Of a stretch of 64,000 bases of DNA, positions 26,317-36,232 are shown piece by piece. A model generated the notes under the pieces. That model worked only from the letters and a program-made list of their open reading frames with translations. It did no database searches and was not told where the DNA came from. Both the position numbers and the translations under genes were made by a program. Source of the stretch: Bryobacter aggregatus MPL3 (lineage in GTDB: Bacteria; Acidobacteriota; Terriglobia; Bryobacterales; Bryobacteraceae); NCBI RefSeq assembly GCF_000702445.1, contig NZ_JNIF01000003.1, positions 3,348,001 to 3,412,000 of the forward strand. The letters are read 5' to 3'. How positions within the stretch are numbered: position 1 is the stretch's first letter; every line of letters begins with the position of its first letter.

Positions 26317-27587
26317 TGAAATTAGCGGAAGATCAGCGGACACAATGATGGGAAACGGCGCTTAGGGGAAGAGGCGAAGGGAGGGCGTAGCCCGACTGGA
26401 GCCGAAGCCCCTAAGCGCCCCGAGCGGGTCCTTACGGTGATAGATTTGGAATCTTCCAAAACACCAAAATCACCCCGAAAGGACACACTCATGAGCGACA
26501 ACCAGAAGCTTATCAAAGCGCGCATTGGACTGCTCCAACTCGCCCAGGAACTGGGCAACATCAAGGCCGCTTGCCAGCGAGCCGGCATCAGCCGCAGCCA
26601 CTTCTACGAGATCAAGGAAGCCTACGAGAAGCACGGAGCCGACGGGCTTGAGCCGAGGCAACGCCGGACGCCTCGGATGCCGAATCAGACTCCGCCCGAG
26701 CTTGAAAAGCAGATCCTCGAGATGACGGCGCAGTATCCGACCTACAGTTACATCCGCATTGCCGACCAGCTTCGTTTGGTCGGCATCGGTGTCTCTGCCC
26801 CCGCCGTCCGAGGGGTCTGGGTACGGCACGGCATCACTCTCCGGCTCCAGCGCCTGCTCTGGCTGGACAAGAAGACCGCCACCGAAGGCGGCGTGCTGAC
26901 GGAGCAAGCCAAGCGGCTCCTGCAGAAGCATCAGGGCCGAAACGTTGACCCGGAACAACATATCGCTGCACCGCATTCTGGCTATCTGCTTTGCCAGGAC
27001 ACTTACTTTGTAGGCACGATCAAAGGCGTCGGCAAGGTCTACATGCAGACGGTCATTGACGCACACTGCTCGCAAGCCTTCGCCAAGGTCTATCTCAGCA
27101 AGATGCCGATCACTGCGGCAGACACACTGAATGATCGAGTCATCCCCTTCTATGACGATGAGAAGGTGGGGATCGAGCGGTTGCTCACCGACAATGGCCG
27201 CGAGTACTGTGGACTCGAAGCTCGTCATCCCTTCGAGATCTATCTGGCGATTAACCAGATCCGCCACAAGAGAACGCAGATCGCTTCCCCTCAATCCAAC
27301 GGCTTCTGTGAGCGCTTCCATCGCACGATCAAGGAGGAGTTTTACAGCATCAAGTTCCGGCAAAAGATCTATCAGTCTGTGGCTGAATTACAAGATGATC
27401 TGGACGCCTATCTGAGCTTCTACAATCGCCAGCGACCCCATCACGGATATCGGACTCAAGGCCGAACGCCATACCAGGCTTTCCTCGATGGGAAAATCGC
27501 CCAGGCGCAACCTATGGCAGCATGAAGTAACCGAATCTCAACCGAGGCCCGTAAGCCCTCGTGTCCGGAGATCTTCAGCTAAATACA
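26317..27587 (+). mobile_element. IS481-family insertion sequence, copy 1 (1271 bp)
   Basis: Ends TGAAATTAGC ... GCTAAATACA form imperfect terminal inverted repeats of about 27 bp, sharing ATTAGC-GAAGATC-CGGACAC. One transposase gene fills most of it. It is flanked by the AGTTACT duplication. Copy 2 at 33398-34668 has exactly the same length and, as far as I compared, differs by one synonymous base (T at 26571 against C on the same strand of copy 2), so both moved recently. Confidence 0.93.
26491..27525 (+). CDS. IS481-family DDE transposase, copy 1
   Basis: 344 aa from ATG 26491, preceded by GAAAGGA; the frame is open to 26437 but this start has the ribosome site. N-terminal helix-turn-helix (LAQELGNIKAACQRAGISRSHFYEIKEAY), then an integrase-like catalytic core: CQDTYFVGTIKGVGK (first Asp), LTDNGREYCG (second Asp), and SPQSNGFCERFHRTIKEEF (Glu). 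Ends in the rve_3-type segment YNRQRPHHGYRTQGRTPYQ. It appears intact, so the element can be active. Confidence 0.93.
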   Translation: MSDNQKLIKARIGLLQLAQELGNIKAACQRAGISRSHFYEIKEAYEKHGADGLEPRQRRTPRMPNQTPPELEKQILEMTAQYPTYSYIRIADQLRLVGIGVSAPAVRGVWVRHGITLRLQRLLWLDKKTATEGGVLTEQAKRLLQKHQGRNVDPEQHIAAPHSGYLLCQDTYFVGTIKGVGKVYMQTVIDAHCSQAFAKVYLSKMPITAADTLNDRVIPFYDDEKVGIERLLTDNGREYCGLEARHPFEIYLAINQIRHKRTQIASPQSNGFCERFHRTIKEEFYSIKFRQKIYQSVAELQDDLDAYLSFYNRQRPHHGYRTQGRTPYQAFLDGKIAQAQPMAA

Positions 27588-27968
27588 AGTTACTTGATCT
27601 CTCTGCACGAAACAGGCTCCTCAATATCCCTCGGGCCGCGCGCAGTGTTCGGATGATCGAAGTGGTCGATGATCTTCAGCTAATTTCACATCAATGTCAG
27701 GCAGGGCACTGGAAACGCTCGCTCTTTATCACTTCGGTCGGTCTGGTATCGCTTTCGAATGTCGGGGAAGACGAGCCCTTCAGAATCTCAAAAGTTAGTG
27801 ACAGCCTATAGATCAAAAGGCCATCGGGCGATGGAAGCGGTCGTAGACAAACGATCTATTGACGCTTGCTGAATATTGCGGATGCAGCTACATCTCCGCA
27901 GGCCCGGATTTGTTCGCGATGAAGATTCCTGGGCATCCTCTATATTCAGCGGACCTCAATAGAAATAG
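27588..27968. other. Interval between IS copy 1 and the tracrRNA terminator
   Basis: Holds the right target copy (27588-27594), the second half of the DUF4011 remnant (to about 27670), and a 27-bp inverted IS left end (27662-27688, ending GCTAATTTCA). The remaining 280 bp carries no recognised gene; a short frame giving LAEYCGCSYISAGPDLFAM could be another gene relic but has no assignment. Confidence 0.6.
27662..27688 (-). mobile_element. Isolated IS481-type left terminus (relic)
   Basis: About 23 of 27 bases match the inverted left end of the intact IS (gtgtccgctgatcttccgc then taatttca). No transposase sequence is attached. With the relic at 26167 it suggests an older, rearranged element in the minus orientation; their outer flanks show no matching target duplication. 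Confidence 0.6.
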
Positions 27969-28084
27969 AAAACGCCCCACGTTCGGGGCGTTTTGCAAAG
28001 GATGCTATTGCTAGCGTAGCCTTGCGTCGGACAAAGTCCGCTTACTAAAACAAGTTGGACAATGACCGCTTCGATATACTTGAA
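27963..28084 (-). ncRNA. Predicted tracrRNA of the type II-C CRISPR system
   Basis: Transcribed leftwards, divergent from cas9. The anti-repeat is 28044-28080: read on minus it begins agtatatcgaagcggtcatt, identical to the first 20 bases of the plus-strand repeat, then has a small bulge (GU for one G) and continues to pair across the rest of the 36-nt crRNA repeat with G-U wobbles and two mismatches. Downstream come the hairpin CGGAC-TTT-GTCCG (28028-28040), the hairpin GCTA-CGC-TAGC (28010-28020), and an intrinsic terminator (27969-27994). It guides crRNA maturation by RNase III and anchors the crRNA in Cas9. Ends are predictions. Confidence 0.85.
27969..27994 (-). terminator. Intrinsic terminator of the tracrRNA
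   Basis: Perfect 10-bp stem AAAACGCCCC (27969-27978) and GGGGCGTTTT (27985-27994) with loop ACGTTC. On minus it is followed by TTTTCTATTTCT, a good U-tract; on plus only TTTT follows. Confidence 0.85.
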
Positions 28085-28090
28085 AGTTAA

Positions 28091-28117
28091 TTTATACTAG
28101 ATTATTGGAAAAGTCAA
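28091..28117 (-). promoter_or_regulatory. Predicted tracrRNA promoter
   Basis: On the minus strand TTGACT (28117-28112) is followed after 15 bp by TATAAA (28096-28091), or after 17 bp by TAAATT. This places the start at about 28080-28085, just before the anti-repeat. The same 58-bp AT-rich gap must also hold the cas9 promoter on plus, where TATACT occurs at 28093-28098. Confidence 0.65.
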
Positions 28118-28138: not shown

Positions 28139-31100
28139 ATGAGCCTGCCCATGTTCATCCGGAAGCCCGAAGGCTACTATGTCCTCGGCATTGATTTAGG
28201 TGTTGCCTCTGTCGGCCTTGCATTGATCGAAACACGATTTGGGGAAATCTGCCATTCCAGTGTTCGTATCTTTTCAGAAGGGATGACGGGAAGCGAAAAA
28301 GACTGGGAGAACGGAAAGGAAGTCTCCAATGCCACTGTACGCCGCGAAGCTCGCGGGCAACGTAGGCAGACCGAGCGCCGGAAGCGCCGAATCAAGAAGG
28401 TCTTCCATCTACTTCGCTCGTACGATTGGCTTCCTGACGTTTCCGGTCCCAACATTCAGGACGCGCTCAATGCACTTGATCTCGAACTGGCGAATCGGTA
28501 CGGACAACATCACAACCTCCCTTATTTCCTTCGGGCTCGTGGTCTGGACGAGAAGCTGAGTCTCACGGAACTTGGACGCGCCATTTATCATCTCGCCCAA
28601 CGACGCGGCTTTCTTTCTAATCGAAAACTGGCACCGAAGAAAGATGACGATATGGGCAAAGTCTATGCCGGCATTGATTCTCTCCGTGAGGAAGTTTCCA
28701 GTTCTGGCAAGAGGACGCTTGGTGAATACTTTGCCTCCCTTGATCCGGAAGAGCAGAAAATCCGTGGACGCTACACATACCGTGACATGTACGTCCAGGA
28801 GTTTCAGCATTTGTGGGCAGCTCAGCAGAACCACCATCCTGAAGAGCTAACGGCAGTTCGACAGGCCACTCTCTTCCGGGCACTCTTCTTTCAACGCCCG
28901 CTCAAAGATCAATCCCATTTGATTGGCCATTGTGACCTTGAGGAAAAAGAGCAACGAGCCCCGATGTATCTGCTCTCGGTTCAGCGCTATCGATTTCTGA
29001 CGGCCTTGAATAATCTTCGACTGGCAGGGCCCGGAGCGGTTTCAAGGGAGATCTCAGCTGATGAGCGGCAGGCGATTATTGAAAAGCTAGGCCAGTGTGC
29101 AAAGCTCAGTTTTACTGAGATTCGAAAGATGCTCGGAGTTCCCAAAACTTTTAAATTCTCCATCGAAGAGGGCGGCGAAACAAAGATTCCTGGGAATCTC
29201 ACCGCATCGCTTATTTATGGAGTCTGCCCTGCTCTTTGGACCGGATTGGACCAGGCCTCAAGGGATCGCCTTGTGGATGTCCTCAAGCGGCTCGAAAGTG
29301 TGGAGTCCCTTGATGATCGGGCCTTAGCTCTCAGGAACCATTGGGATGTCAGCGACGACGAGATCGACAAGCTTTTGAGTTTGAAACTGCCTTCCGAGTA
29401 CGCCTCAATCTCGTTACGAGCCATCAATCGCCTCTTGCCGCTTCTGGAAGAAGGGCTCACCTTTGCTGCTGCCAAGCATCAGCTCTACCCGGAAACCGAC
29501 AATTGTCAGGTGGAATCGTTCTTACCTCAGGTCAAGGATGTCTTCCGGGAGATTCGCAACCCAGCTGTCTTGCGCAGCCTCTCTGAGATGCGCAAGTGTG
29601 TGAATGCCTATATCCGTCACTTCGGAAAGCCGGACGAGATTCACATTGAACTTGCCCGGGACCTGCGTCGATCGAAGGGGGACCGGGCTGCGATGACAAA
29701 AGAGATTAGACAGAATGAACTGGCACGAAAGAAGGCGTACGCCGCACTCATAGAGAATGGAATTCCAAACCCATCGCGATGGGAGGTGGAGAAGTTTCTG
29801 CTCTGGGAAGAATGCCGACGTGAATGTCCGTACTCAGGTAAGGCAATTTCCTTCCACTCGCTCTTTGTGGAGCAGCAGTTTGAAGTGGAGCACATCATTC
29901 CATACTCTCGATGTCTCGACGATAGTCGCGCAAATCGGACCCTTGCGCATGTGGAGTACAACCGAATCAAAGGAAACCGGACTCCAGTAGAGGCGTTTTG
30001 CGGGCGAGAGGATTGGCCCGAAATGAAAGGGCGCTTCGCCCGATTTGCTCGGACTGCAAAGCTGAGGCGCTTCCTGATGACGGAGACGGACGCCGCAGAG
30101 TTGCTCAAAGATTTTACGGAGCGGCAATTGAACGACACCAAGTACGCCTCAAAACTGGCGGCGAAATATCTGGCCCGCCTCTATGGCGGCAAGAGTGATG
30201 AGACTGGAATGCGAGTGCTCTCCTGCGCTGGGAAAGTGACATCCGCTCTCCGCCGCGTGTGGGATATGAATCGGGTTCTGAATGTCGTTCCTGAGAAGTC
30301 ACGCGACGATCATCGCCATCATGCGGTGGATGCGGTCGCGATCGCGCTTTGTAGTTCGAAATGGATCAAGGCTCTGAGTGATGCGAGTGCAAAGACACTG
30401 CATCGTCGACCGCTGAGAAGTGCCTTGCTGGCGGATCCGTGGCCGGGATTCCGAGACGACCTAAATCAGAAGATCCACGAGCAAACACCCGTTAGTCATC
30501 GGCCGAAGCGGAAGCTTAGTGCGGCACTCCACGGAGACACGATCTATAGCCGGCCGCAAATCCATAACGGCAAAGCCGTGTTTCATCTGCGCAAGCCAGT
30601 CTTCAACCTTGAGTCGGAAGCTGACATCGGAAAAATCGTGGATCCGGTGATTCGGGAGTGTGTGCGGGAAAAGTTCCTTGAAGTCGGGAGAGATGCCAAG
30701 CGCTTAGAGCACGATGTCCCTCGAATGAGGAGTGGCGTGCCCATTCGAACTGTACGTGTGCGGCAGACCTCAGTTTCCGCTGTGGCCCTGGGAACAGGTG
30801 CGGCCAAGCGTTATGTGAATCTGGGAGGCAATCATCATATGGAGATGATTGCGATTCTCGATGATGATTGCAAAGAGACCGGCTATGAGGCGTCAGTAGT
30901 TTCGTATCTGGAGGCGAATCAGAGGAAGCGACGAGCCGAGCCCATTGTGAAAAGAGATCACGGACTGAATCGCCGCTTCTTGTTTTCACTGAGTGCGGGG
31001 GATATCGTTCAATACGGTAGAAATGGGCAAACGCTGGGATTCTGGTTGGTTCGTGGCGTCACCACGGATCAGAAAGGGCGCCTCGATTTGTGCCGGCTTA

Positions 31101-31222
31101 CTGATGCACGAATCAAGTCCGAACAAGAGCGAGAGAGACCCACCGCGGCGGCCTTCCTGAAGGCTAAGGGGCGCAAGGTCAATATTGCACCCATCGGAAC
31201 CTGGACCTATGCGAATGACTAA
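28139..31222 (+). CDS. cas9: Cas9 nuclease, type II-C (1027 aa)
   Basis: RNA-guided double-strand DNA endonuclease. RuvC-I is YVLGIDLGVASVGLALIE with Asp19; the arginine-rich bridge helix follows (RREARGQRRQTERRKRRIKK, about 68-87). RuvC-II is DEIHIELARDLRR with Glu504. The HNH domain has FEVEHIIPYSRCLDD with His585 and YNRIKGNRTP with Asn608. RuvC-III is HHAVDAVAIAL with His728 and Asp731. All catalytic residues are present, so it should be active. The length lies in the compact II-C range. The C-terminal PAM-interacting part (about 800-1027) does not tell the PAM. The region upstream has no strong ribosome site. cas1 overlaps its 3' end and the predicted tracrRNA is divergent at the 5' end. 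No csn2 or cas4 is present. Confidence 0.97.
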   Translation: MSLPMFIRKPEGYYVLGIDLGVASVGLALIETRFGEICHSSVRIFSEGMTGSEKDWENGKEVSNATVRREARGQRRQTERRKRRIKKVFHLLRSYDWLPDVSGPNIQDALNALDLELANRYGQHHNLPYFLRARGLDEKLSLTELGRAIYHLAQRRGFLSNRKLAPKKDDDMGKVYAGIDSLREEVSSSGKRTLGEYFASLDPEEQKIRGRYTYRDMYVQEFQHLWAAQQNHHPEELTAVRQATLFRALFFQRPLKDQSHLIGHCDLEEKEQRAPMYLLSVQRYRFLTALNNLRLAGPGAVSREISADERQAIIEKLGQCAKLSFTEIRKMLGVPKTFKFSIEEGGETKIPGNLTASLIYGVCPALWTGLDQASRDRLVDVLKRLESVESLDDRALALRNHWDVSDDEIDKLLSLKLPSEYASISLRAINRLLPLLEEGLTFAAAKHQLYPETDNCQVESFLPQVKDVFREIRNPAVLRSLSEMRKCVNAYIRHFGKPDEIHIELARDLRRSKGDRAAMTKEIRQNELARKKAYAALIENGIPNPSRWEVEKFLLWEECRRECPYSGKAISFHSLFVEQQFEVEHIIPYSRCLDDSRANRTLAHVEYNRIKGNRTPVEAFCGREDWPEMKGRFARFARTAKLRRFLMTETDAAELLKDFTERQLNDTKYASKLAAKYLARLYGGKSDETGMRVLSCAGKVTSALRRVWDMNRVLNVVPEKSRDDHRHHAVDAVAIALCSSKWIKALSDASAKTLHRRPLRSALLADPWPGFRDDLNQKIHEQTPVSHRPKRKLSAALHGDTIYSRPQIHNGKAVFHLRKPVFNLESEADIGKIVDPVIRECVREKFLEVGRDAKRLEHDVPRMRSGVPIRTVRVRQTSVSAVALGTGAAKRYVNLGGNHHMEMIAILDDDCKETGYEASVVSYLEANQRKRRAEPIVKRDHGLNRRFLFSLSAGDIVQYGRNGQTLGFWLVRGVTTDQKGRLDLCRLTDARIKSEQERERPTAAAFLKAKGRKVNIAPIGTWTYAND

Positions 31223-32132
31223 TCGAATTCTCGACTTCTCAAATTCCGCAGCCTATCTTCATGCACGAGGAGCAACGCTCGAGGTGGAACTGAATGGTAA
31301 AGCTTGCCATTCAGTTCCCTTTGAGGAAATTGCTGCTTTGGTGGTAGCGCATTCTCAAGTGACCTTTTCTCAGTCCGCAATCGCACGTCTTGCAGAGGCT
31401 GGAGGGATCCTTGTGGTCTGCAATGACAGGTTTATGCCTGTTGCCATGACGATGCCAATCGAAAGTCACTGGTATCAGGCGGAACGATTCGTAAAACAGG
31501 CTGCTTTCACAGTTCCAAAGAAGAAACGTTTATGGCAGCAAATCGTCCGCAAGAAGATCGAGCACCAGTCGACTGTGTTGGCCGGAGCGACTGGAAAAGA
31601 CCATGGCTTGAGTGCAATGGTTCCCCGGGTTTTGAGCGGTGATCCTGGAAACGTAGAAGCTCAGGCCTCCCGGCGATACTGGTCAAAGCTCTTCAGCGAC
31701 AAGCAATTTGTGCGAGCGAACCCTGAAGACCCGCGTAACGCGCTTTTAAACTACGGCTATGCCGTACTTCGGGCCTCTACTGCCCGAGCCATTGCTGCGG
31801 CTGGTTTACACCCCACCTTTGGACTGCATCATGCGAACAAACTAAATGCCTATCCACTTGCCGACGACCTGATGGAGCCCTTTCGTCCCATCATTGATGC
31901 GCAAGTGCTTCGCATTCTATCGAACAGTGATCTTTCGCTCCAACTCGTGCCGAAGACAAAGCATGAGTTGCTTTCGATCCTGACGGATCGATTCTACTCT
32001 GAGGGAGAGGGGCGAACGCTGTTTGACATCCTTGCGAGGATGGCTCAAAGCCTAGCTCGAGTCATCCTGGCAAGGGAATCGAAGTTCGTAATTGGGCTTG
32101 ATTCGCCTCTCTCGACGGATGAGGAGCCTTGA
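31215..32132 (+). CDS. cas1: Cas1 integrase (type II)
   Basis: 305 aa from ATG 31215 (MTNRILDFS), overlapping cas9 by 8 nt; ATG 31209 is equally possible. Metal-binding residues are Glu148 (GDPGNVEAQASRRYW), His205/206 (TFGLHHANKLNAYPL) and Asp218 (ADDLMEPFRP). With Cas2 it forms the complex that captures and inserts new spacers at the repeat. Length is normal. Overlap with cas9 and the 3-nt gap to cas2 indicate one operon. Confidence 0.97.
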   Translation: MTNRILDFSNSAAYLHARGATLEVELNGKACHSVPFEEIAALVVAHSQVTFSQSAIARLAEAGGILVVCNDRFMPVAMTMPIESHWYQAERFVKQAAFTVPKKKRLWQQIVRKKIEHQSTVLAGATGKDHGLSAMVPRVLSGDPGNVEAQASRRYWSKLFSDKQFVRANPEDPRNALLNYGYAVLRASTARAIAAAGLHPTFGLHHANKLNAYPLADDLMEPFRPIIDAQVLRILSNSDLSLQLVPKTKHELLSILTDRFYSEGEGRTLFDILARMAQSLARVILARESKFVIGLDSPLSTDEEP

Positions 32133-32135
32133 GCA

Positions 32136-32465
32136 GTGCCGCTCTCGGCCTATAAATCCATGTGGCTCTTTGCTCTCTTCGACTTGCCTGTGGAATCGAA
32201 AGAGCATCGTCGTCACTACGCACAGTTTCGGAAGAAACTTTTGGATAAGGGATTTACGATGTTACAGTTCTCTGTTTATGCGAAGCACTTGGCTAGTGAG
32301 GAGGCTGCTGCCTCGCTGCGCACCACGATTGTTTCGGCCCTTCCGCCCAAAGGACAAGTGAGGATTCTTGGAATCACAGACCATCAGTTCGGAAAAATGG
32401 AAATTTATAGCGGTCGTCAGCGCGAGAAACGAGAAGACCCACCGATGCAAATCTCCTTATTTTGA
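32136..32465 (+). CDS. cas2: Cas2 (type II-C)
   Basis: 109 aa starting at GTG 32136, 3 nt after the cas1 stop. Ferredoxin-like fold with the N-terminal strand MWLFALFDLPVESKEHRRHY carrying the conserved Asp, and a final GRQREKREDPPMQISLF. It acts structurally in the Cas1-Cas2 integration complex. Last gene of the operon; the array begins 92 bp downstream. Confidence 0.95.
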   Translation: MPLSAYKSMWLFALFDLPVESKEHRRHYAQFRKKLLDKGFTMLQFSVYAKHLASEEAAASLRTTIVSALPPKGQVRILGITDHQFGKMEIYSGRQREKREDPPMQISLF

Positions 32466-32525
32466 GCCGGCCGATCGCCGCACTCATGCCTCAGCAGCTC
32501 CAAAATTGGGTTCCGGGACGGGAAA

Positions 32526-32553
32526 GCCCTGCAAAATGAATCATTTGCAGGGC
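32526..32553. terminator. Perfect hairpin between cas2 and the array
   Basis: GCCCTGCAAA (32526-32535) and TTTGCAGGGC (32544-32553) form a 10-bp stem around ATGAATCA, ending 4 bp before the first repeat. It could end cas-operon transcripts (plus) or pre-crRNA transcribed leftwards (minus, followed by GGCTTTCCC, a weak U-tract). It could also be part of the leader used for spacer integration. The sequence does not decide. Confidence 0.55.
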
Positions 32554-32557
32554 ACCT

Positions 32558-33381
32558 AGTATATCGAAGCGGTCATTCCCAACTAGCCATAGCTCACCGG
32601 AGAAGGTTCTCCACAAAGGGAGAAGTATATCGAAGCGGTCATTCCCAACTAGCCATAGCATGAGTACGCGGATATCGCGCCGTGGGCGTAGTATATCGAA
32701 GCGGTCATTCCCAACTAGCCATAGCGTATCGCGCGAAGATGGCGAACTGTCATGCAGTATATCGAAGCGGTCATTCCCAACTAGCCATAGCGCGGGGAGA
32801 CGTTACCCTGTTCTCCTCGGTAGTATATCGAAGCGGTCATTCCCAACTAGCCATAGCCGTAGCCAGAAGACCCATCGCTTCGGACCAGTATATCGAAGCG
32901 GTCATTCCCAACTAGCCATAGCGCCAATGGCTCGTTCTGCATCATCCCTGAAGTATATCGAAGCGGTCATTCCCAACTAGCCATAGCTTCGAGTTCTCTG
33001 TTGATTGGTGTTCTAAGAGTATATCGAAGCGGTCATTCCCAACTAGCCATAGCTTTCTGGCGGGGAGGTAGTACGAACAAATGAGTATATCGAAGCGGTC
33101 ATTCCCAACTAGCCATAGCAGCTTTGACGCTGATAGTAAGATTGCAACAGTATATCGAAGCGGTCATTCCCAACTAGCCATAGCCAAGGAGATCTAGTTC
33201 CTATCGACGACGTAAGTATATCGAAGCGGTCATTCCCAACTAGCCATAGCTGCATACGTCATTTCTCGCCCTTCGACGAAGTATATCGAAGCGGTCATTC
33301 CCAACTAGCCATAGCATAGAAGAGTTCGCCTCGAACGTCAGCTTCAGTATATCGAAGCGGTCATTCCCAACTAGCCATAGC
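32558..33381 (-). CRISPR. CRISPR array, left segment: 13 repeats
   Basis: 36-nt repeats on plus start agtatatcgaagcggtcatt and end cccaactagccatagc. Starts are 32558, 32624, 32690, 32756, 32822, 32887, 32952, 33018, 33084, 33149, 33215, 33280 and 33346, all identical by eye. Spacers are 29 or 30 nt. The strand is given as minus because the anti-repeat pairs with the minus-strand transcript and each repeat then ends in GATATACT, a -10-like hexamer. The 13th spacer is split by IS copy 2. Confidence 0.97.
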
Positions 33382-33397
33382 CGTTGTAGCCGGTATT

Positions 33398-34668
33398 TGT
33401 ATTTAGCTGAAGATCTCCGGACACGAGGGCTTACGGGCCTCGGTTGAGATTCGGTTACTTCATGCTGCCATAGGTTGCGCCTGGGCGATTTTCCCATCGA
33501 GGAAAGCCTGGTATGGCGTTCGGCCTTGAGTCCGATATCCATGATGGGGTCGCTGGCGATTGTAGAAGCTCAGATAGGCGTCCAGATCATCTTGTAATTC
33601 AGCCACAGACTGATAGATCTTTTGCCGGAACTTGATGCTGTAAAACTCCTCCTTGATCGTGCGATGGAAGCGCTCACAGAAGCCGTTGGATTGAGGGGAA
33701 GCGATCTGCGTTCTCTTGTGGCGGATCTGGTTAATCGCCAGATAGATCTCGAAGGGATGACGAGCTTCGAGTCCACAGTACTCGCGGCCATTGTCGGTGA
33801 GCAACCGCTCGATCCCCACCTTCTCATCGTCATAGAAGGGGATGACTCGATCATTCAGTGTGTCTGCCGCAGTGATCGGCATCTTGCTGAGATAGACCTT
33901 GGCGAAGGCTTGCGAGCAGTGTGCGTCAATGACCGTCTGCATGTAGACCTTGCCGACGCCTTTGATCGTGCCTACAAAGTAAGTGTCCTGGCAAAGCAGA
34001 TAGCCAGAATGCGGTGCAGCGATATGTTGTTCCGGGTCAACGTTTCGGCCCTGATGCTTCTGCAGGAGCCGCTTGGCTTGCTCCGTCAGCACGCCGCCTT
34101 CGGTGGCGGTCTTCTTGTCCAGCCAGAGCAGGCGCTGGAGCCGGAGAGTGATGCCGTGCCGTACCCAGACCCCTCGGACGGCGGGGGCAGAGACACCGAT
34201 GCCGACCAAACGAAGCTGGTCGGCAATGCGGATGTAACTGTAGGTCGGATACTGCGCCGTCATCTCGAGGATCTGCTTTTCAAGCTCGGGCGGAGTCTGA
34301 TTCGGCATCCGAGGCGTCCGGCGTTGCCTCGGCTCAAGCCCGTCGGCTCCGTGCTTCTCGTAGGCTTCCTTGATCTCGTAGAAGTGGCTGCGGCTGATGC
34401 CGGCTCGCTGGCAGGCGGCCTTGATGTTGCCCAGTTCCTGGGCGAGTTGGAGCAGTCCAATGCGCGCTTTGATAAGCTTCTGGTTGTCGCTCATGAGTGT
34501 GTCCTTTCGGGGTGATTTTGGTGTTTTGGAAGATTCCAAATCTATCACCGTAAGGACCCGCTCGGGGCGCTTAGGGGCTTCGGCTCCAGTCGGGCTACGC
34601 CCTCCCTTCGCCTCTTCCCCTAAGCGCCGTTTCCCATCATTGTGTCCGCTGATCTTCCGCTAATTTCA
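33398..34668 (-). mobile_element. IS481-family insertion sequence, copy 2, inside the CRISPR array
   Basis: Same 1271 bp as copy 1 in opposite orientation, flanked by the 7-bp duplication CGGTATT (33391-33397 and 34669-34675). Its target duplication differs from that of copy 1, so the two copies inserted independently. Confidence 0.95.
33460..34494 (-). CDS. IS481-family DDE transposase, copy 2
   Basis: 344 aa, identical in protein sequence to the product of copy 1, with the same catalytic segments (CQDTYFVG, LTDNGREYCG, NGFCERFHRT) and the same ATG preceded by GAAAGGA. It reads in the same direction as the predicted array transcription, so read-through from the right array half could enter it. 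Confidence 0.93.
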   Translation of the reverse strand: MSDNQKLIKARIGLLQLAQELGNIKAACQRAGISRSHFYEIKEAYEKHGADGLEPRQRRTPRMPNQTPPELEKQILEMTAQYPTYSYIRIADQLRLVGIGVSAPAVRGVWVRHGITLRLQRLLWLDKKTATEGGVLTEQAKRLLQKHQGRNVDPEQHIAAPHSGYLLCQDTYFVGTIKGVGKVYMQTVIDAHCSQAFAKVYLSKMPITAADTLNDRVIPFYDDEKVGIERLLTDNGREYCGLEARHPFEIYLAINQIRHKRTQIASPQSNGFCERFHRTIKEEFYSIKFRQKIYQSVAELQDDLDAYLSFYNRQRPHHGYRTQGRTPYQAFLDGKIAQAQPMAA

Positions 34669-34688
34669 CGGTATTGTTGGTGTGTTTG

Positions 34689-35381
34689 AGTATATCGAAG
34701 CGGTCATTCCCAACTAGCCATAGCCGATTGAGGGCTAAGTGTTGCTCGGTTGCAAGTATATCGAAGCGGTCATTCCCAACTAGCCATAGCACTCTGACAT
34801 TGGCACCATTCGCAGCATTAGTATATCGAAGCGGTCATTCCCAACTAGCCATAGCCGGACGCGTGGACTCCTCGCCCAGTCGCGAGTATATCGAAGCGGT
34901 CATTCCCAACTAGCCATAGCGCTTTTCGCCAACCGCTTTACGGCATTCCAAGTATATCGAAGCGGTCATTCCCAACTAGCCATAGCCAGATTTGATCCTG
35001 GTAATCACAACCCTCTAGTATATCGAAGCGGTCATTCCCAACTAGCCATAGCATGCCGAACACAGAAGTATTGGGAACATAAAGTATATCGAAGCGGTCA
35101 TTCCCAACTAGCCATAGCCAGATGGAGCAGGCGCAGTCTGCTCGGCATAGTATATCGAAGCGGTCATTCCCAACTAGCCATAGCAGGGTGACACCGGCAG
35201 AAGCGGGCGAAGGGAGTATATCGAAGCGGTCATTCCCAACTAGCCATAGCCGCTCACGTGCTGGCATGGAGTTGTCCAAAAGTATATCGAAGCGGTCATT
35301 CCCAACTAGCCATAGCGAAGCCGCTGGGGGTCCCGAACCTTGCGAAGTATATCAAAGCGGTCATTCCCAACTAGCCATAGC
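34689..35381 (-). CRISPR. CRISPR array, right segment: 11 repeats, last one variant
   Basis: Repeats start at 34689, 34755, 34820, 34885, 34951, 35017, 35083, 35149, 35215, 35281 and 35346, with spacers of 29-30 nt. Ten are identical to the left segment. The last one (35346-35381) has A for G at repeat position 9 (atatcaaag). On minus this changes CGATATACT to TGATATACT, an extended -10. The whole array therefore has 24 repeats and 23 spacers. Confidence 0.97.
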
Positions 35382-35587
35382 CGCGGAGGCCGAAGGGGGC
35401 GCCCTAGCGTTGATAGATATCGCGGCCCAGAAAGCGCCTAAGCCGGGTATTTTTTTCAAGCGTTCTTCCGCGGTCGTACAACTTACTGTGTGGCACATCC
35501 GAGCCTTGCTGCTCTTCTTATTCTGCAGTCGGTTTCGTAGCGTGAATGGTGAGGCGCTCTCCCTGGTGCTTACTACTCCACGCCCCT
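35382..35587. other. Right flank of the array; no gene
   Basis: 206 bp between the last repeat and the stop of the RibD-C-like gene. For minus-strand array transcription this is the upstream side. No clear -35/-10 pair was recognised here; a T7 run on plus (about 35450) stands out. Confidence 0.5.
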
Positions 35588-36232
35588 CTATCTTCTCGTA
35601 AGCACAACATGCGTCGCGTGTTCCGTGGCTTGGTGCTCGGTGACAGAGAACCCCAGTGCCGGCAGGTCAATTCCGGGGAACAGTGCCTCCCCTTGACCGA
35701 GGGCGACCGGGGCCAGTGCAAAGTGGAGCGAATCAATCAGTCCAGCCTGCAGATACTGCCGCACGGTGGAAACACCGCCTCCGATTTTGACGTCCTTGTC
35801 TCCTGCTGCTTGCTTCGCGAGCCGCAACGCCTCTTCAATTCCGCCAGTGACAAAGTAGAAGGTTGTCCCGCCCTCCATTACGAGCGGCTCACGCTCGTAG
35901 TGTGTCAGCACAAAAGTCGGTGCATGGTAGGGCGGATTGGCGCCCCACCATCCCTTCCACGAATTGTCCTGCCATGGGCCACGGACCGGACCAAACATGT
36001 TGCGGCCAAGGATGAAAGCGCCAAAGTTTTCCATGGCCTGCTGTGCGAATATCTCGTCCCCATCGACCGATCCGCCTTCCTGCCCATGCATGGCGCGGAA
36101 TGACCGGGTATGAAAATACCACTGAAAGATCTCTGGACCACGCTTGCCCAGCGGATCCTCCAGGCTCTGCTCCATCCCTGAGCTGAACCCGTCCAAAGAA
36201 ACACTAAATCCCGCGACGCGAACCTTTGCCAT
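35588..36232 (-). CDS. Dihydrofolate-reductase/RibD C-terminal-domain family protein
   Basis: 214 aa. Fold pattern of the RibD_C/DHFR-like reductase family: VRVAGFSVSLDGFSSG at the N-terminus, GAFILGRNMFGPVRG, THYEREPL, and KDVKIGGGVSTVRQYLQAGLIDSLHFALAPVALGQGE. Members bind NADPH but few have a known substrate; this stand-alone soil-bacterium type is often found next to YCII and ECF42-type sigma genes, as here. The start is 10 nt downstream of the YCII gene stop. Confidence 0.88.
   Translation of the reverse strand: MAKVRVAGFSVSLDGFSSGMEQSLEDPLGKRGPEIFQWYFHTRSFRAMHGQEGGSVDGDEIFAQQAMENFGAFILGRNMFGPVRGPWQDNSWKGWWGANPPYHAPTFVLTHYEREPLVMEGGTTFYFVTGGIEEALRLAKQAAGDKDVKIGGGVSTVRQYLQAGLIDSLHFALAPVALGQGEALFPGIDLPALGFSVTEHQATEHATHVVLTRR

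Follow-up and report, generated by a model that had tools for sequence, protein, structure and literature searches.

A type II-C locus with a divided array

The window, which is the whole 64-kb stretch of DNA analyzed here, carries cas9, cas1, and cas2 on the plus strand, and, beyond cas2, an array in which 24 repeats, each 36 bp long, alternate with 23 spacers (32558-35381; Table 1). The cas1 open reading frame begins with a TTG at 31185, and its real start may lie slightly downstream. No fourth cas gene was found before the array (28139-32558), where the other listed open reading frames overlap these three. The assignment to type II-C made in the original prediction is borne out by the cas9-cas1-cas2 order on the plus strand, the lack of any further cas gene in the interval up to the array, and a predicted tracrRNA with an anti-repeat. 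The window gave no Rfam match at gathering scores and no hit in a tRNA search. Cas9 relatives were collected from genome contigs with an alignment search, the best 80 of at least 475 being kept; searching these contigs with the single protein returned none.

Table 1. Features of the locus, in window coordinates
Feature	Position	Strand	Basis or remark
Predicted tracrRNA	27969..28085	-	anti-repeat core ~28051-28080; terminator-like hairpin 27994-27969
cas9, 1027 aa	28139..31222	+	TIGR01865, 657.8 bits (cut-off 100); PADLOC Cas9; Pfam HNH_4, RuvC_III, Cas9_a
cas1	31185..32132	+	TIGR03639 type II Cas1, 246.9 bits; TTG-started ORF
cas2	32136..32465	+	TIGR01573; PADLOC Cas2_II
Hairpin immediately after the transcription-3' end (probable leader side) of the array	32526..32553	-	sequence and fold
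cas2-proximal (probably newer) array part, 13 identical repeats	32558..33381	-	
IS481-family element, 1271 bp	33398..34668	-	NF033577, 255.9 bits (cut-off 224)
Transposase ORF of the IS481-family element	33460-34548	-	
Leader-distal (probably older) array part, 11 repeats	34689..35381	-	interval of the original prediction
Spacer next to the outermost repeat (probably oldest), 29 nt	35317..35345	-	spacing
Outermost "extra" repeat, C28T, CGATATACT to TGATATACT	35346..35381	-	

Twenty-three of the repeats are identical and one, at 35346-35381, has a single mismatch; a search of the whole genome allowing up to 3 mismatches returned only these 24 copies. The original prediction was confined to 34689-35381, which does hold 11 repeats, but the array extends over 32558-35381 and is split by an insertion sequence. 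This IS481-family element lies in a 29-nt spacer that separates repeat 13 from repeat 14 (numbering from the cas2 side) and is flanked by a 7-bp target duplication (33391-33397 and 34669-34675). Over its whole length it is matched at 9 places in the genome with 96 to 100% identity, 2 of them in the window, where the second copy (26317-27588) is inverted and upstream of the tracrRNA. The repeat at 34689 faces the transposase and could drive its transcription.

Predicted transcribed strand, probable leader side, and age of the repeats

The anti-repeat agrees with the final 22 nt of the repeat at 20 positions and, since it reads on the plus strand like the minus-strand repeat, the tracrRNA is predicted on the minus strand, with a promoter-like site upstream of it on that strand (TTGACT, beginning at 28117). 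The computed duplex of the minus-strand repeat with the tracrRNA has an energy of -48.7 kcal/mol. Together, the minus-strand anti-repeat, terminator-like hairpin, and promoter-like site and the duplex point to crRNAs made from the minus strand, running from 35381 toward cas2, and this prediction agrees with the strand proposed originally. Of the 18 loci examined, 16 have their tracrRNA anti-repeat ahead of cas9 and oriented like it, with the repeat end reproduced down to its -10-like hexamer; this end could double as a cas9 promoter. On the other side of the array, a minus-strand gene encoding a RibD_C domain ends at 35588, 207 nt ahead of the array, and its transcription could also enter the array, as a scan found no minus-strand terminator-like site between the two.

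To place the leader, we used 131 transcription-3' flanks (the window and 130 among loci L010-L241) and 99 far-side flanks for comparison. The transcription-3' flank is the cas2 side in L026-L105 except in L099, which was oriented partly by its TANANT end and in which, unlike the rest of these loci, the transcription-3' end is the one facing away from the cas genes. Positions +12 and +13 from the last repeat are A in 73% and 95% of the 131 flanks, and positions +55, +56, and +57 in 78%, 91%, and 86%; [AG]AAAA occurs between +43 and +64 in 78 of these flanks, compared to 7 of the 99 far-side ones. The corresponding flank of the window (32468-32557, minus strand) keeps A12 and A13 and has AATTTT in place of the A-tract of its relatives. 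The A at +12/+13 and the A-tract near +55 are fixed features of II-C leaders across phyla. Of the 131 flanks, 87 have a stem of at least 8 pairs, as in the hairpin of the window, in the 60 nt that follow the array (12% in shuffles), compared to 23 of 100 on the far side by the same criterion (7% in shuffles). These leader-side hairpins differ in sequence among relatives while the pairing is kept, and a T-run follows in only 40 of the 81 flanks where this could be tested; the hairpin may therefore be more than a terminator.

Among 99 arrays, the repeat at the leader-distal end (the extra repeat) is mutated in 53 and the leader-end repeat in 2. A similar imbalance, 60% against 5% in 357 II-C systems, was reported previously, with mutation described as the rule in the leader-distal extra repeat and most changes within its first 15 nt (PMC12080349). 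Arrays of this type are also described as expressed toward the variable end, from promoters encoded in the repeats (PMC8092290). Because the leader signature of its relatives lies at the opposite end and changes concentrate in extra repeats, the variant repeat of the window is most likely the oldest, leader-distal one. Upstream of it we found no further degenerate repeat (best match, 9/20). The original prediction had also assigned the variant to the 5'-most repeat of the transcript; under the predicted minus-strand transcription this is the position, at the 35381 end, of the one repeat in 24 that differs.

Promoter-like repeat ends

On the minus strand, 23 of the 24 repeats end in CGATATACT and one in TGATATACT, so that TATACT, which matches 5 of 6 positions of TATAAT, closes every repeat, as proposed. 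The 23 minus-strand copies of CGATATACT all lie within the array and the single plus-strand copy lies outside it, in the tracrRNA anti-repeat, while TGATATACT occurs once in the 64 kb with both strands counted. The C-to-T change thus does create a TGn, in the register of an extended -10, and does so only in the outermost repeat; the other 23 lack it. The match to TGnTATAAT rises from 6/8 to 7/8. Of the 108 single-base changes that the repeat could undergo, only 2 raise this score, and of the 36 transitions only 1, which makes the gain unusual, though it was spotted after the fact. The changed C sits in a CpG at position 28 of 36, outside the first 15 nt. A scan of 32450-35700 for two-hexamer sigma-70 matches gave none (mean of 3.0 in shuffles).

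We next consider the repeat end across relatives. In 47 distinct untrimmed consensus repeats, taken from the window and L026-L105 with boundaries set by conservation alone and the cas9 strand as the orientation guide, a TANANT end is found on the cas9-opposite strand in 44 and on the cas9 strand in none. A larger set of 112 distinct repeats was oriented and trimmed partly by this very end, and its TANANT count of 101/112 is biased. In that set, TG stands at -15/-14 in 39 repeats against 0 to 10 at six neighboring offsets, and it is the majority state in 11 of 27 repeat clusters against 0 to 3 at ten neighboring offsets. Among the closer relatives of the 47-repeat set, it is found in 8 of 43, compared to 7 of 43 two places upstream, and the TG signal therefore comes mainly from other groups. 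A possible division into two kinds of promoter, one with TTG near repeat position 9 and the other with TGn, was also considered. TG was present in 16 of 62 repeats with a TTG at repeat position 8 or 9 and in 23 of 50 without (P = 0.03, uncorrected for relatedness); with position 9 only, the counts were 15 of 51 and 24 of 61. In the third repeat of L045, counted from the transcription-5' end, a T31A change replaces the T that opens the -10, so that this repeat offers a natural test of a repeat promoter.

In the minimal II-C array of Campylobacter jejuni, every repeat contains a -10 box promoter from which crRNAs start, and a comparable arrangement in Neisseria meningitidis is cited as a personal communication (both in PMC3656092). 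The window shares with C. jejuni the -10 box in the 3' part of the repeat, the three cas genes, and a tracrRNA, and differs in that 23 of its 24 repeats lack the extended -10 TG, its array is split by the insertion sequence, and its promoters are putative. Given the precedent in Campylobacter and the conserved TANANT end, promoters at the repeat ends of the window are likely.

Further likenesses are found in the G705 family of II-C arrays (L152, L212-L238), which we take to be from Neisseriaceae on the strength of the meningococcal repeat. They share the crRNA strand opposite cas9 and the -10 at the repeat end, and the extra repeat of L152 has a strengthened -10. They differ from the window in that the standard repeats carry TGn in 22 of the 23 arrays retained for analysis (all but L234). 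The repeat-end motif and the architecture are already known for II-C arrays, and the variant looks ordinary.

Probable origin and possible consequences of the variant base

The reading that we consider probable as a whole is that of a minus-strand array with a promoter in each repeat, whose oldest repeat has by chance acquired a C-to-T change that completes TGn. The -10 of each repeat would start the crRNA of the next downstream spacer some 6 to 8 nt into that spacer, as judged from the usual distance between a -10 and the start, and tracrRNA and RNase III would complete the crRNA, as reported for C. jejuni (PMC3656092). Spacers would be acquired at the cas2 side, leaving the repeat at 35346-35381 as the oldest, without a useful crRNA of its own and never copied; there, one C-to-T change in a CpG would happen to complete the extended -10. 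Its transcript would start inside the spacer at 35317-35345, and the variant, if active, would boost that oldest spacer and, by read-through, the next ones as far as the insertion sequence; it may in this way raise the oldest crRNA. That a stronger outermost promoter would read the entire array, as first suggested, is unlikely because the 1271-bp element between repeats 13 and 14 separates the distal 11 repeats from the other 13 and, with its transposase pointing the same way on the minus strand, stands in the path ahead of the newer 13.

For the origin of the T, we looked at relatives of the window. The consensus repeat has T at the variant position in L125, L128, L131, L132, L028, and L241 and C in L026, L036, and L240. 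A Cas9 tree with 23 rows joins the window to L026 and L106 in a single clade (100/100), nested in a 12-row group that includes these T-bearing relatives. The contig of L106 (genome G582), the closest relative, ends before the array, and L026 is the nearest relative with an array. Both the window and L026 have C in the repeat and in the anti-repeat, and the -15 base of the anti-repeat equals that of the repeat in all 16 loci where an anti-repeat was found (18 examined). Since C is present in both places in both loci, it probably predates their split, and the T of the window is, judging from these comparisons, probably a secondary mutation.

We also counted changes at the eight TGnTATAAT sites in 99 extra repeats, drawn from 102 arrays compiled out of 235 scanned loci. 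The 102 were reduced to 99 by leaving out the half of the window array next to cas2, the L173 half with 10 repeats, and the 37-nt array of L155, and 53 arrays had been excluded earlier (45 with a transcription-5' end less than 60 nt from the end of the stretch, 5 duplicates, and 3 for length or score); in L098, L213, L228, and L238, a fixed rule made a weaker upstream partial repeat the extra one. We counted 3 gains against 10 losses, with 2 changes neutral. Chance would give 1.06 gains (P = 0.08) and 12.3 losses (P = 0.11). The gains are the window, L029 (TACACT to TATACT), and L152 (TACAAT to TATAAT, in an extra repeat that carries 13 changes altogether). The idea that extra repeats generally acquire strengthening mutations was rejected, as the gains across the 99 arrays are nonsignificant; a weak up-bias is possible since gains lie above and losses below the chance mean. 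Promoter-specific constraint likewise found no support, with 1.67 changes per site at six key sites against 2.0 at ten neighbors (P = 0.71). Extra repeats show a strong 5'-to-3' gradient of change, and terminal repeats may erode at their outer end for reasons other than promoter constraint.

These data bear on several other explanations, whose likelihoods overlap with each other and with that of the chance change and are not meant to sum to one. Recognition by the integrase at the leader junction is a possible reason for conservation of the repeat end. The end might be kept mainly for this recognition of the leader-repeat junction by Cas1-Cas2 and for pairing with the anti-repeat, with crRNAs arising largely by read-through from the upstream gene: TATACT lies on the side of the repeat that faces the leader, the -15 base is shared with the anti-repeat wherever the latter was found, and the RibD_C-domain gene lies close by with no terminator-like site detected in the scan. 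We nevertheless find this rather unlikely, as the invariance tracks the weighting of a sigma-70 -10 (T31 in 111/112, A32 in 112/112, and T36 in 109/112, in repeats with boundaries trimmed partly by this end) and crRNAs of C. jejuni begin from each repeat (PMC3656092). It is improbable, too, that the family originally had T and that the oldest repeat retained it while newer repeats became C. The six T-bearing consensus repeats would fit, as would L235, in which the oldest repeat has the commoner TACAAT and the consensus TATAAT, but C in the repeats and anti-repeats of both L026 and the window would require parallel changes in both lineages.

Selection for the T, with an extra repeat relieved of crRNA and acquisition duties becoming a stronger dedicated promoter, would agree with the improved match of the variant over the other 23 repeats and with the shift toward consensus in two more of the 99 extra repeats. 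Losses outnumber gains, however, the key promoter sites are mutated no less than their neighbors, and the insertion sequence limits the part of the array that could be read, all of which makes this explanation very unlikely. The broader proposition that the oldest II-C repeat, freed from crRNA production and copying, can turn into a stronger promoter dedicated to the oldest memories strikes us as highly doubtful; were it so, the TGn of the window, the TATACT of L029, and the perfect TATAAT of L152 would be three independent cases. Finally, the change might disarm an extraneous crRNA, as has been proposed for II-C extra repeats, and the computed tracrRNA duplex is indeed weakened, from -48.7 to -46.6 kcal/mol. 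Yet the change merely turns a G-C pair into a G-U pair, and position 28 is beyond the initial 15 nt of the repeat, which hold most such mutations (PMC12080349); disarming is thus barely credible. With the extra repeats described in PMC12080349 the window shares a mutated oldest, transcription-first repeat, and it differs in having one change, in the promoter part of the repeat and not in the first 15 nt.

Good evidence for selection of the variant is absent, and it looks like ordinary ageing: a conspicuous promoter-up end repeat can be explained simply, since II-C end repeats mutate freely and promoter gains are rare among them. If the stronger-promoter reading were true, spacer age and crRNA dose would be coupled through one base.

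The 5' ends of extra repeats are often changed as a block (approximately the first 4 to 16 nt) with the remainder intact, a pattern that resembles replacement and not point drift; it was seen in L036, L037, L052, L068, L072, L083, L084, L085, and L103 and in several of L152-L238.
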